Below, piece after piece: positions 13,206 through 17,711 of a stretch of DNA of 64,000 nucleotides. Source of the stretch: Roseomonas fluvialis (GTDB lineage Bacteria; Pseudomonadota; Alphaproteobacteria; Acetobacterales; Acetobacteraceae); the NCBI RefSeq assembly GCF_022846615.1, contig NZ_AP025637.1, forward strand, positions 4,427,001 through 4,491,000. Reading direction: 5' to 3'. Position 1 is the stretch's first letter. Each line of letters starts with the position of its first letter. The notes below the pieces were generated by a model. That model did not search any database and was not told the DNA's origin. It saw nothing but the letters and a program-made list of their open reading frames with translations. A program made the translations under genes and the position numbers.

Positions 13206-13229
13206 CGTTATACCTCTAAGTATATATCG
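13206..13229 (+). promoter_or_regulatory. ModE-like box 1
   Basis: A 24-bp imperfect palindrome of form 8+8+8: CGTTATAC, eight bases, ATATATCG. From memory, E. coli-type ModE boxes have the same form (CGTTATAT-N8-ACATAACG). It lies 20 nt before the start of the decayed DUF2325 gene and is AT-rich in an otherwise GC-rich region. Confidence 0.65.
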
Positions 13230-13248
13230 AGATGCAAGAAGGCGGGAC

Positions 13249-14500
13249 ATGATGGCACTGCGCGACGGCGTCCTGGCCAAGACAGCGGCAGCCGCGTTCA
13301 GAACGCCGCGCCTGCCGGTGCGGGACTGCGACGGTGCCTTTCCCTCCCTGAACCTGCCGCGCCCGGCATCCGTGCCACGTGCCGCGCAAATCCTGCAGGA
13401 CGCGCCGCCTCCGCCGCATCTGGGATCTTGGCGCGAGACTGCATTGTTCGATCGTCGACACCTGTCCGACCATGGACGAGTTGCGCCGCGTCGTGCGCAA
13501 GCTCGGCGCGGGAACCGCGGAGGCGAGCGACCACGCGCTGTACGGCATCGCTGTCGACCTGACGGCGCAGCAGGGTGTCTGCGCGAAGCTGGTCAACACG
13601 GCGCTCGATGACCGCAATCGCATGGCGATCCGGAGTCTCGGGGCGGCGACGGATGCCAAGGGCCTGCGCGCCGCGTGGCGCTATGCCCTGGCGGAAGGCG
13701 GGATCCCTGGCGCCTACTGGGCGGTGCTGACGCATCCCGGCGCGGACCAGGCGCTGATCAGCGAGGTATTCGGCGACATGCACATGCCCTCGCACCCGGT
13801 CGGCGCCGCGAAGCGCGCCGACGTCCGGCAGCTTGCCGCACAGGATCGCGAGATCACCGCGCTGCGCGAGACAGTAGCGCGCCAGCAGTAGCGCCTGCGC
13901 ACCGCCTGACCAAGCGCGACGGGCGCATCCAGGCCTTGCAGGACATGCTGGTCGCGCGCGTGCAGGCGAGTGCGCCGGCCATGGCCAGTGAGCGCGGCGA
14001 AGTCGATCGGCTGATCGTCGGGTTGCCGTCGCGCCTGAATCGCGAGGCCACGCGCCGCGAAGCGGCAGAGGCTCGCGCGGCCGTGGCCCGCGAGGCGCTC
14101 AGGGCCGAACACGCCGCACGACTGCGGCTCGAAGCGCAGGTCGCCGCGATGGAGGCCGCGCTCGACCTACCAGAGGCTGGCAGACCCGCGACGTCGCGCT
14201 ACGCCACGATTCTCCATGTCGGCGGTCGTTCCGGCCGAACCGCGCAGTTGCGACGTATAGCCGAGAGGCTCGGCGCCGCAGTGCTGCACTTCGATGCGGA
14301 GCAGGGCGCGGCGTTGCTGCCGGGCCGGGACGGACGCGCCAACCTCGTGGGTTTTCCTGTCGACTGCGCTGGTCACGACGCGGCCGTCGGCAGAAAGCGA
14401 TTTGTGCCAGCAGCTGGGCCGGCCCTTCCAACCACTGCGAGTCACCGGCGTGGCCAGTCTGCTCGCGGCACTGCGGGAGACCCCGGCCAGGGCGGAGTGA
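13249..14500 (+). pseudogene. DUF2325-domain protein, broken by frameshifts and a stop
   Basis: The parts of one protein are spread over different frames. An N-terminal piece starts at 13249; a frameshift near 13400 leads to a long helical piece (WDLGARLHCSIVDTC through GGIPGAYWAVLTHP) ending at an in-frame TAG at 13889. The frame then changes, and the piece from about 13910 to 14395 is a coiled coil followed by the DUF2325 domain (ILHVGGRSGRTAQLRRIAER). Another frameshift gives the C-terminus LCQQLGRPFQPLRVTGVASL ending at 14500. An intact relative would be about 400 residues. At least three frameshifts plus one stop argue against simple read errors. It sits between two ModE-like boxes directly upstream of modA. 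Confidence 0.8.
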
Positions 14501-14520
14501 TAGACGGCGTCACCGGCTTA

Positions 14521-14544
14521 CGCTATTTCCTGATACATACAACG
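14521..14544 (+). promoter_or_regulatory. ModE-like box 2, modABC operator
   Basis: A second 24-bp 8+8+8 element: CGCTATTT, eight bases, ATACAACG. It ends 17 nt before the modA start and would overlap the promoter or leader of modABC. Molybdate-bound ModE normally represses modA at such a site. Confidence 0.7.
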
Positions 14545-14561: not shown

Positions 14562-15338
14562 ATGCGCCGCCGCTATCTGTCCCTCCTCGCCTCACTGGCG
14601 GTCGGCTTCGGCAGCATGGGCGCCCCGCGCGCGCAGGAGGCCGTCACCGTCTTCGCCGCAGCGAGCCTGACGGATGCGCTGCGCGACCTCGGCGCGCAAT
14701 GGGCGGCGCGCGGCAATCCGGCGCCGCGCTTCTCCTTCGCTGCGTCGTCTGCGCTGGCGCGACAGATCGAACAGGGCGCGCCGGCCGACCTGTTCATGTC
14801 GGCCGACGAGGCCTGGGCCAATTACCTGCAGGAGCGCAACCTGCTCGTGAACGCCACACGGAGTTCACCGCTCGGCAATGCCCTCGTGCTGATCGCGCCG
14901 GCCAATGCGGCACGGCCGGTCACGCTCGCGCGCGGCACCGACCTCGCTGCATTGCTCGGGCCGACCGGGCGCGTCGCCGCCGGCGATCCCGCCCACGTGC
15001 CGGTCGGGCGCTATGCCCAGGCGGCGCTGACCTGGATGGGGCAGTGGGAGGCGATCGCGCCGCGCCTGGCGCGCGCCGACAATGTCCGCACCGCGCTGCT
15101 GCTCGTCGAGCGCGGGGAAGCTCCCTTTGGCATCGTCTATTCCACCGACGCGGCCGCCAGCCCGGGTGTGCGCGTGGTAGGCACCTTCCCCGCCGAGAGC
15201 CACGAGCCCATCACCTATCCCTTCGCGCTGACGCGCCGCGCGGACGGCAATGGGCAGGCCCGCACGCTGCTCGCCTTCCTGACGGGCGCCGAGGCCACGC
15301 CGACCTGGCAGCGCTTCGGGTTCATGCTCGCGCGGTGA
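14562..15338 (+). CDS. modA: molybdate ABC transporter substrate-binding protein
   Basis: A 258-residue periplasmic binding protein. Residues 1-25 are a signal peptide ending in APRAQE. The mature protein starts with the ModA signature VTVFAAASLTDALRDL, has the SSALARQIEQGAPADLFMSADEAW block that contributes to oxyanion binding, and FGIVYSTDAAA near the C-terminal lobe. It captures molybdate (and probably tungstate) for ModBC. GGAGACATGCG precedes the ATG. It is the first gene of modABC, 22 nt before modB, and follows a ModE-like box. Confidence 0.95.
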   Translation: MRRRYLSLLASLAVGFGSMGAPRAQEAVTVFAAASLTDALRDLGAQWAARGNPAPRFSFAASSALARQIEQGAPADLFMSADEAWANYLQERNLLVNATRSSPLGNALVLIAPANAARPVTLARGTDLAALLGPTGRVAAGDPAHVPVGRYAQAALTWMGQWEAIAPRLARADNVRTALLLVERGEAPFGIVYSTDAAASPGVRVVGTFPAESHEPITYPFALTRRADGNGQARTLLAFLTGAEATPTWQRFGFMLAR

Positions 15339-15360: not shown

Positions 15361-16059
15361 ATGACCACCTGGCTGAGCCCGGAGGAATGGCAGGCCGTCC
15401 GGCTGAGCCTGGATGTCGCGACACGGTCGGTGATCGGGTCGCTCCTGCCGGCGATCGCCGCGGCCTGGGTGCTTACGCGCTATCGTTTTCCGGGCCGCGC
15501 ACTGCTGGATGCGCTGGTGCACCTGCCGCTGGTCGTGCCGCCAGTCGTGGTAGGCTGGGGTTTGCTGATGCTGTTCGGCATCCGCGGGCCGATCGGCGCC
15601 CCGCTGCATGAGTGGTTCGGCGTGCGGCTGGTCTTCACCACCGATGGCGCGGCGCTCGCCACCGCGGTGATGTCCTTCCCCCTCATTGTGCGCTCCGTGC
15701 GCCTGGGACTGGAGAACGTGGACCAGGGGCTGGAAGCGGCTGCGCGCACGCTCGGCGCCGGGCCGATCGACCGCTTCCTCACCGTGACCCTGCCGCTGAT
15801 GTCACCGGGGATCCTCGCCGGGGCAATTACGGCCTTCGCGGCGGGCCTGGGCGAATTTGGAGCGGTCATCACCTTTGCCTCGAACATCCCCGGAGAGACG
15901 CAGACGCTGCCGTTGGCGATCTACAGCGCGACGCAGACGCCCGGCGGCGAGGCCACCGCGGCCCGCCTTGCCCTGGTGTCGTTCACGCTGGCGATCAGCG
16001 GGCTCCTGCTGGCAGAGTTGATCGCGCGACGCATGCACCTGCTGCTGGGGCGCGGCTGA
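15361..16059 (+). CDS. modB: molybdate ABC transporter permease
   Basis: A 232-residue inner-membrane permease of normal ModB length with about five to six membrane segments. Family marks are LLDALVHLPLVVPPVVVGWG, FTTDGAALATAVMSFPLIV and the EAA loop LEAAARTLGAGPIDRFLTVT, which contacts the ATPase ModC. Its stop overlaps the modC start (TGATG), so translation is coupled. Confidence 0.95.
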   Translation: MTTWLSPEEWQAVRLSLDVATRSVIGSLLPAIAAAWVLTRYRFPGRALLDALVHLPLVVPPVVVGWGLLMLFGIRGPIGAPLHEWFGVRLVFTTDGAALATAVMSFPLIVRSVRLGLENVDQGLEAAARTLGAGPIDRFLTVTLPLMSPGILAGAITAFAAGLGEFGAVITFASNIPGETQTLPLAIYSATQTPGGEATAARLALVSFTLAISGLLLAELIARRMHLLLGRG

Positions 16060-17228
16060 TGCTGGAGGTAGCACTCCGCCATCGCTTCGGACGTCAGGGC
16101 TTCGCCATCGAAGCCGCCTTCACCGCGCCGGGCGATGGCGTGACCGCGCTGTTCGGCCCTTCGGGCTGCGGCAAGTCCACCATCCTTGCGGCCGTCGCGG
16201 GGCTGTTGCGGCCGGATGAGGGGCGCGTCGCGCTCGACGGCACCATGCTGCTCGACACGACCCGGCGCGTCTTCGTGGCGCCGGAGCGCCGCCGTTGCGG
16301 CCTCGTGTTCCAGGAAGCGCGGCTGTTCCCGCATCTCAGCGTCGAGACCAACCTGCGCTACGGGCTGAAGCGCGCGCCGCGCGGCACGACGGGGCCGGGC
16401 TTCGACGAGGTTGTCGCGCTGCTCGGCATCGCGGCGCTGCTGCCGCGTCGTACGGGGCGGCTTTCGGGTGGCGAACGGCAGCGGGTCGCGCTGGGCCGCG
16501 CGCTGCTGTCACGCCCGCGCCTGCTGCTGATGGACGAGCCGCTCGCCGCGCTGGACGCAGCGCGGCGCGGCGAGGTGCTGCCCTTCCTTGCGCGGCTGCG
16601 CGATGTGGCGCGAACACCGATCCTGTATGTCACCCACGCGCTCGACGAGGTCGATGCATTGGCTGACCGGATGGTGTTGCTCGAATCCGGGCGCGTGCTG
16701 GCCGAGGGCAGCGTCGAGGCGCTCACCGCGCGCACCGACCTGCCGCTCGCGGCACGGCGCGACGCCGGCGTGCTGGTCGCCTGCACGGTACGCAGCGCGC
16801 ATGAGGGCCTCGCTACGCTGGACTTCGATGGCGGCGTGCTGGTCACGACCTCGCGCCCCGGTCCGCCGGGCACTCGGCTGCGGGTGCGGCTGCGCGCGCG
16901 CGACGTGGCGGTGGCGATCGAGCAGCCGCGCGGCATCTCGACGCAGAACATCATCCCCGTGACGCTCGTCGCGATCGACGAGGGCAGCGAGGTGGGCGAG
17001 GTGTTCTTGCGCCTCACGGCCGGACCGACCTCGCTCCTGGCGCGCGTGACGCGCGAAAGCGTGGTTCGGCTGCAGCTACGCCATGGCATGGCGGTCTGGG
17101 CGCTGATCAAGGCCGTGACCTTCGATCACCGCGTGGTCGGCGCGGCCATCACGACCGAGGCGGCGGAAGAACGCGCACTCGCGGTCAGGATGATGCCGAA
17201 CGTCGTGCTGAAAGGATCTGACCGATAG
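16059..17228 (+). CDS. modC: molybdate ABC transporter ATP-binding protein
   Basis: A 389-residue ATPase. Walker A is GPSGCGKST at 33-41, the Q-loop region is VFQEARLFPH, the signature is LSGGERQ at 135-141, and Walker B is LLLMDEPLAALD. The C-terminal part (about 290-360) is a TOBE/Mop-type domain that binds molybdate oxyanion (ISTQNIIPVTLVAI, SLLARVTRESV). The last ~30 residues extend past the usual end of the family. It starts on the A of the modB stop. Confidence 0.94.
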   Translation: MLEVALRHRFGRQGFAIEAAFTAPGDGVTALFGPSGCGKSTILAAVAGLLRPDEGRVALDGTMLLDTTRRVFVAPERRRCGLVFQEARLFPHLSVETNLRYGLKRAPRGTTGPGFDEVVALLGIAALLPRRTGRLSGGERQRVALGRALLSRPRLLLMDEPLAALDAARRGEVLPFLARLRDVARTPILYVTHALDEVDALADRMVLLESGRVLAEGSVEALTARTDLPLAARRDAGVLVACTVRSAHEGLATLDFDGGVLVTTSRPGPPGTRLRVRLRARDVAVAIEQPRGISTQNIIPVTLVAIDEGSEVGEVFLRLTAGPTSLLARVTRESVVRLQLRHGMAVWALIKAVTFDHRVVGAAITTEAAEERALAVRMMPNVVLKGSDR

Positions 17229-17333: not shown

Positions 17334-17711
17334 ATGGGGGCGACACCAAAGCAGCGTGGCACGGACAGGGTGGCGACCGGTGCGCTCAGCCTCCGCATTG
17401 ACCTGCCAGAGGGACGCATCGGACCCGGGAAGATCGACCTTCTCGAGGCGATCGATCGCGAAGGGTCGATCTCGGCCGCAGGACGCGCGCTCGGCATGAG
17501 CTATAAGCGCGCGTGGGACCTGGTCGATGCGCTGAACAAGCTGATCGGCGAACCGGTCGTCGCGGCGAGCACGGGCGGCTATCGCGGCGGCGGTGCGACG
17601 CTGACCGATGCGGGGCGGAATCTGGTCGCGGACTATCGAGCCATCGAGCGGGCGGCCCATCGTGCGGCCGAACCTCGCCTCGCCGCCCTACTCAAGCGGA
17701 CCAGGGGCTGA
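17334..17711 (+). CDS. short ModE-type molybdate-responsive regulator (DNA-binding domain only)
   Basis: A 125-residue winged-helix protein matching the N-terminal half of ModE: LDLLEAIDREGSIS-like start, then GSISAAGRALGMSYKRAWDL as the helix-turn-helix, and a GGGATLTDAGRNLVADY wing. E. coli ModE has about 260 residues with two C-terminal molybdate-binding TOBE domains, and these are absent here. Short forms are known in alphaproteobacteria. How this one senses molybdate is unclear; it might act with another protein or respond through ModC activity. It lies 105 nt after modC in the same direction, and the two ModE-like boxes upstream are its likely targets. Confidence 0.85.
   Translation: MGATPKQRGTDRVATGALSLRIDLPEGRIGPGKIDLLEAIDREGSISAAGRALGMSYKRAWDLVDALNKLIGEPVVAASTGGYRGGGATLTDAGRNLVADYRAIERAAHRAAEPRLAALLKRTRG

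Follow-up and report, generated by a model that had tools for sequence, protein, structure and literature searches.

The molybdate-uptake locus of Roseomonas fluvialis is, very probably, what remains of a molybdenum-starvation unit under ModE control, in which the gene for a long DUF2325 protein is now a relic. In the window, by which we mean the whole stretch of 64,000 nucleotides analysed, the dead gene lies directly upstream of modABC, and it and modA are each preceded by a predicted ModE operator (Mo-box; Table 1). Intact relatives of the dead gene carry the same type of operator, and their gene neighbourhoods give an indication of what the unit may have done.

Two Mo-boxes and the mod operon

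The original prediction placed two 24-bp ModE-like boxes in this locus, one of them at modA, with a ModE-type gene 3-4 kb away, and the positions and scores obtained bear this out; the ModE gene lies 2.8 and 4.1 kb from the boxes. The scoring matrix was built from 56 distinct modA-upstream sites out of the best 80 modA loci of public genomes, the training site in each case being the best match to a published-type ModE consensus upstream of modA, with a score of at least 12 and with the window excluded. The background was set at 70% G+C, and scores inflate in AT-rich DNA. With the same matrix, the best distinct site in the 64-kb window after boxes 1 and 2 reached 9.2 bits, a value of 10.2 bits being a shifted reading of box 1. 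A ModE consensus, ATCGCTATATANNNNNNTATATAACGAT, as ATCGCTATATA-N6-TATATAACGAT, is printed in the work on the predicted Geobacter sulfurreducens regulon (PMC2700814).

Table 1. Features of the mod locus, with positions in the window
Feature	Position	Strand	Basis
Scrap of second molybdate-type substrate-binding protein gene, C-terminal 39 residues	12903..13019	-	tblastn
Mo-box 1 (predicted ModE operator), CGTTATACCTCTAAGTATATATCG	13206-13229	.	26.9 bits, window-free matrix
Dead long-DUF2325 gene (N-terminal Cys/His domain, coiled coil, DUF2325 domain)	13249..14500	+	Profile pieces, Pfam
Mo-box 2 (predicted ModE operator), CGCTATTTCCTGATACATACAACG	14521-14544	.	27.9 bits, window-free matrix
modA, molybdate-binding protein	14562..15338	+	PRK10677.1 263.3 bits (cut-off 253), TIGR01256 183.5 bits
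modB, molybdate permease	15361..16059	+	PRK09421.1 304.1 bits, TIGR02141 208.9 bits, both above cut-off
modC, ATPase with C-terminal TOBE domain	16059..17228	+	TIGR02142 401.7 bits; TOBE 48 bits
Short ModE, 125 aa, DNA-binding domain only	17334..17711	+	TIGR00637 100.4 bits (cut-off 98.5)

Both boxes have the form of a Mo-box, an imperfect inverted repeat near CGnTATAT-N8-ATATAnCG. The pattern CGNTAT-N10-ATANANCG has exactly two perfect matches in the 5,481,269-bp genome, namely boxes 1 and 2, and with up to two mismatches it finds 417 sites against 219 for a backward control; since this pattern was written after the boxes had been seen, the matrix is the cleaner test. Box 1 stops 19 nt short of the first ATG of the dead DUF2325 gene and box 2 17 nt short of the modA ATG, the latter in the promoter position at a molybdate-related gene that is looked for in a Mo-box. 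Most of the 80 relatives have a box upstream of modA, in close relatives at the position of box 2, and the distance from box end to start codon is mostly 9-36 nt.

The short ModE is the single TIGR00637 match in the whole genome. Pfam recognised no C-terminal molybdate-binding Mop/TOBE domains in this 125-aa protein, which is accordingly described here as a short ModE-type protein only. Elsewhere in the genome there is a stand-alone TOBE frame of 77 aa (G000:C1:3574954-3575142), the sole one found there. The two proteins are a possible split sensor, their joint action being a guess.

The DUF2325 gene of the window is dead

As originally predicted, the gene between the boxes is broken by frameshifts and a stop, and it is dead. 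A full-length family profile matches it piecewise, with the frame changing between three segments (218, 93 and 19 bits), reading opens at ATG 13249 in a further frame, and an in-frame TAG stands at 13889-13891, which together amount to three frame changes and one stop; TGA and TAG codons interrupt the gene. PF10087 (DUF2325) is matched with an E value of 2.4e-4 and 21.7 bits, under the cut-off of 33.6 that intact relatives exceed, and has no second match in the genome.

Damage is also visible where the frame is open. In a clean stretch of 162 codons, six residues are changed that all 19 intact relatives in the family keep (G63D, H91Y, L173P, L176P, N181K and R187Q in the numbering of the Neoroseomonas alba protein), so a few sequencing errors do not suffice to explain the state of the gene. 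At sites invariant in five intact relatives, the window sequence has changed almost equally at the three codon positions (13/106, 12/111 and 5/36; 12, 11 and 14%), and in four of the five leave-one-out controls drawn from the same relatives the rates at the first two positions were distinctly lower. The death of the gene is probably not very recent. The opposite reading, that the gene is intact and its frame changes are assembly errors, has next to no probability: the genome is a single contig and indel errors happen in such assemblies, but errors of this kind do not account for the in-frame TAG, the six altered invariant residues, the near-equal changes over codon positions or the loss of neighbouring genes described below.

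A syntenic locus and the lost neighbours

The corresponding locus of Neoroseomonas alba (L039) retains the ancestral layout: a second molybdate-binding protein gene and a gene for an NAD-type aldehyde dehydrogenase (ALDH) on the minus strand, a box, the DUF2325 gene, a box, and modABC. Its counterpart of box 1, in the equivalent position, scores 32.3 bits. Between the SulP gene of the window and box 1 we found a 117-bp scrap of the second binding-protein gene, with 61.5% identity to the L039 protein over 39 residues (tblastn, E 3.9e-9, 778-bp subject), and box 1 follows 187 bp further on. From the equivalent point to the box, L039 holds the complete binding-protein gene and the ALDH gene; since the scrap alone remains before box 1, the window has lost the ALDH gene together with the remainder of the second binding-protein gene. 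The closest ALDH elsewhere in the genome has 44% identity, whereas many mod-linked copies reach 85-97%. In an order-level search, an intact DUF2325 copy turned up in one genome of the window's own genus, with a protein 100% identical to that of L039.

Erosion of the gene is seen in further species. In Falsiroseomonas algicola (L056) a 26.8-bit box is followed by DUF2325 scraps of 22.6 and 14.8 bits and then by the modA box, with some 520 bp from the upper box to the modA box, and in L040 scraps of 17.2 and 8.4 bits lie between a self-boxed ALDH gene and the modA box. Two loci of one genus in another family (L153, L154) have a box, a 75-bit C-terminal scrap or shrunken gene, and then ALDH genes; L120 has a truncated copy with no box directly before it. 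As controls for the relic search, 27 other modA upstream regions gave at best 4.3 bits and 240 shuffles at best 5.0 bits, by which measure L028, at 6.7 bits, is a suggestive relic. L047 was dropped as a relic, its -0.3 bits being no signal.

The survival of box 1 beside a dead gene, and of the upper box of F. algicola with only scraps between the boxes, is what would be expected if both boxes served modABC, with box 1 as a distant second operator or leftover promoter and the DUF2325 gene incidental; because F. algicola also keeps its upper box, selection for modABC control is possible. As a full account this is improbable, given boxed DUF2325 genes with no mod gene nearby (L108, L113, L115, L116, L119 and L126) and the boxed copies of other families. 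In the window, box 1 has most likely survived as an operator of the lost unit, whether by chance or for a remaining part in the control of modABC.

Intact copies in Acetobacteraceae are boxed throughout

Of 299 genomes sampled from the family, 22 had a PF10087 match, the window's genome not counted. The set of 19 intact copies consists of 18 full-length copies among the 23 PF10087 matches plus L039, which was found through modA; the other five matches were left out as truncated (L014/L120), partial (L022/L105) or at contig ends (L015/L121, L017/L123, L024/L107). Each of the 19 has a box of more than 15 bits within 250 bp of the start of its transcription unit, a score reached by 1 of 760 dinucleotide shuffles. 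The unit starts with the DUF2325 gene itself in 15 copies, and in the other four (L110, L114, L124, L125) a same-strand ALDH gene lies directly upstream of DUF2325 and the box precedes the ALDH gene. Intact DUF2325 genes without a box, sought as a refutation of the original prediction, did not turn up in the family, where all 19 copies are boxed at the gene or operon.

A gene for modA, B, C or E lies within 5 kb of 11 of these copies, and an NAD-type ALDH gene within 5 kb of 15, the neighbouring ALDHs falling in several groups with about 35-42% and 85-97% identity to two queries. With an ALDH gene beside or divergent from 15 of the 19 copies and sometimes self-boxed (L106, L111, L112, L119), and with box and ALDH genes persisting in L153 and L154 where DUF2325 is down to a C-terminal scrap, one may ask whether the box controls a divergent ALDH or other neighbour and DUF2325 shares it by position only. 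We regard this as very improbable: in L106, L111, L112 and L119 the ALDH and DUF2325 genes each have a separate box, and the boxed copies of Rhizobium, Shinella, Ensifer, Methylorubrum and Caballeronia have no recognised ALDH gene nearby, that of Aureimonas having one. Nor can the DUF2325 protein simply be a partner of ALDH, since four of the 19 Acetobacteraceae copies and many rhizobial and Caballeronia copies lack an ALDH gene in the vicinity.

Several further genes recur around these and other mod loci. Mo-boxes were found before genes for SMP-30/strictosidine-synthase-like proteins near DUF2325 loci (L106 3521, L109 12345, L110 5974) and at or near the starts of genes for BtuF-like periplasmic binding proteins (L105 8449, L110 10975, L114 7445, L120 10986); the BtuF-like genes of L105, L110 and L120 are directly upstream of modABC, and the boxed genes of this type may be a sign of a further kind of molybdenum uptake. 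In two loci (L118 9754-11016, L122 11288-12544) a molybdate-type substrate-binding protein has a C-terminal Oxidored_molyb match. The same group of ALDH occurs beside or inside the mod cluster of L037 (4306-5778) and L041 (8518-9993), where DUF2325 was not recognised, and a TrmO-like gene (tRNA methyltransferase O N-terminal domain) recurs beside mod genes, for example in L031, L033, L040, L042 and L118.

The box marks one subfamily of long DUF2325 proteins

Outside the family, a match was found in 10 of 385 genomes of the class sample, 19 of 398 of the phylum sample and 11 of 250 of the order sample, and in 28 and 33 plasmid records; no relatives were confirmed in viral contigs. The long form was present in 17 of 18 plasmid records examined, and 15 of these 17 copies have an upstream box of 27.6-38.4 bits (Rhizobium, Shinella, Aureimonas, Methylorubrum, Ensifer, Caballeronia and Burkholderia). 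Upstream of the two long-form copies of Azospirillum the matrix scan found no box.

The tree comprised 52 long DUF2325 proteins, of which 42 rows, including the window, form a boxed clade of alpha- and betaproteobacteria. All 41 other rows of this clade have a box at the gene or a short operon, a count that does not stand for 41 independent events since it includes near-duplicate rows (L161/L170, L165/L171, L124/L125, L111/L112). In 35 of them the box lies no more than 450 nt from the conserved HC core, and in six it precedes the first gene of the operon: five of these operons (L110, L114, L124, L125, L201) begin with an ALDH gene and one (L156) with a NUDIX gene. The 10 rows outside the clade are all without a box (best score 7.4). 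One genome (G944) has two DUF2325 copies, one in the boxed clade and one of the boxless outside kind, and loci from the phylum and order searches, which are out-of-sample, agree with the clade rule. Within the clade, the N-terminal piece of the window clusters with L039 and L119, and the smallest starred set to contain it has an SH-aLRT of 97; the exact place of the window is loose because 41% of columns are filled.

As far as the sequences sampled here tell, the box rule is limited to this one subfamily (41/41 in the clade, 0/10 outside it) and does not extend to every DUF2325 protein. Sites of 15-21 bits in AT-rich DNA near short DUF2325 genes (L182, L183, L186) were not counted as boxes, and in L178 and L179 sites of 17.4 and 24.6 bits lie downstream of the gene. 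Short stand-alone DUF2325 genes, open frames of about 135-210 aa, occur in L172 (5899-6312) and L181-L185; that of Sinorhizobium meliloti lies in a hemin-uptake/TonB cluster, and the matrix scan found no convincing Mo-box there.

The DUF2325 protein

In the long form an N-terminal part is followed by a predicted helical stretch and by the DUF2325 domain at the C terminus, for which AlphaFold gave, with moderate confidence, alternating strands and helices. The model, made for the L039 protein alone, was poor overall (mean pLDDT 55.3), and only its helices and its C-terminal alpha/beta domain reached partial confidence; a Foldseek search with this model was uninformative (best E 5.9e-3). For the N-terminal part Pfam gave nothing credible even with E values up to 10 allowed, and a profile search of solved structures returned coiled-coil matches only. 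Residues C59, C65, H91, H155, H171 and H175 of this part are conserved within and beyond the boxed clade, which suggests metal or redox chemistry of a kind unspecific to molybdenum.

The neighbours offer a second line of indication. Besides ALDH, some loci have genes for MsrA, MsrB or NAD-formate dehydrogenase, and all of these enzymes have molybdenum-containing counterparts. Nitrogen fixation was rejected as the link: nifH exceeded its cut-off in 1 of 22 genomes with DUF2325 and 10 of 277 others, that is in 11 of the 299 family genomes, and not in the genome of the window.

A model of the unit

The boxes at 19 of 19 family copies and 41 of 41 clade relatives support the view, already part of the original prediction, that the intact protein would have been molybdenum-regulated, and we infer that ModE would have been the regulator. 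With molybdate plentiful, ModE, perhaps together with a separate Mop/TOBE protein, would occupy the boxes and block transcription; with molybdenum short, ModE would be released, and the uptake genes, in intact species also DUF2325 and ALDH, would be made. The argument for repression over activation comes from where the boxes lie and from precedent: their ends are 17 and 19 nt from the start codons (mostly 9-36 nt in relatives), so that a dimer bound there would lie over the transcription start.

ModE does activate some operons, and some records have Glp molybdotransferase and NifQ among the neighbours, as would fit a DUF2325 protein activated by ModE-molybdate and made at high molybdenum, for example for storage or cofactor insertion. 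We consider such activation unlikely, because most box ends lie near the start codon, as at modA of the window, where bound protein should cover the transcription start, and because neighbouring uptake genes and molybdenum-free enzymes better match starvation. In the repression model, two steps are held with less confidence, namely that a molybdenum-free ALDH would replace molybdenum aldehyde oxidoreductases in a metal-sparing response, and that the DUF2325 protein, with its invariant Cys and His residues, would be a metal-binding or redox helper. Extended to the whole clade, the model would give many alpha- and betaproteobacteria a way of sparing molybdenum that is separate from nitrogen fixation, combining a dedicated, metal-binding long DUF2325 protein with molybdenum-free stand-ins, perhaps MsrA/MsrB and NAD-formate dehydrogenase among them. 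We offer this extension tentatively, as a possibility short of even odds; it is favoured because the ALDH, Msr and formate dehydrogenase neighbours have molybdenum counterparts.

Comparison with known systems

In Rhodobacter capsulatus, the ModE-like MopA and MopB bind Mo-boxes and, with molybdate, repress modABC, morAB and anfA, so that the Fe-nitrogenase is made only at molybdenum scarcity (PMC6925177, PMC7294313). The operator before modABC is of the same kind as ours, and there too uptake genes appear together with a target for molybdenum-free metabolism, a regulator of a molybdenum-free enzyme being repressed with molybdate. The two cases differ in that the alternative enzyme there is the Fe-nitrogenase, whereas the recurrent targets here are a DUF2325 protein and ALDHs. 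Geobacter metallireducens, like the window, holds decaying vestiges of a ModE regulon; unlike here, where ModE and box stay and the target gene decays, ModE was lost there and the boxes are fading, and the available portion of that study names no DUF2325 or ALDH gene among Geobacter ModE targets (PMC2700814).

Another DUF2325 protein is Cj1384 of Campylobacter jejuni, a Cys-rich protein of 104 aa that is 352-fold up in violet-blue light, with PerR and RacRS as its controlling regulators (PMC9426514). It shares with the long form the DUF2325 domain, is likewise Cys-rich and is under stress or metal regulators, but it has no long N-terminal part and adjoins a catalase and a heme-trafficking gene rather than mod genes (PMC9426514). 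In the literature searched, outside which most subscription journals lie, we found no link between DUF2325 and molybdenum, four papers in which DUF2325 is mentioned, and nothing relevant on a link between ModE and ALDH. Mo-boxes and ModE regulons are already known.

The strict link between one subfamily and the Mo-box across two classes makes possible a direct molybdenum-starvation experiment for the poorly known DUF2325 family. If the ALDH link is one of enzyme replacement, metal-for-metal backup of the nitrogenase type would extend to ordinary carbon metabolism.
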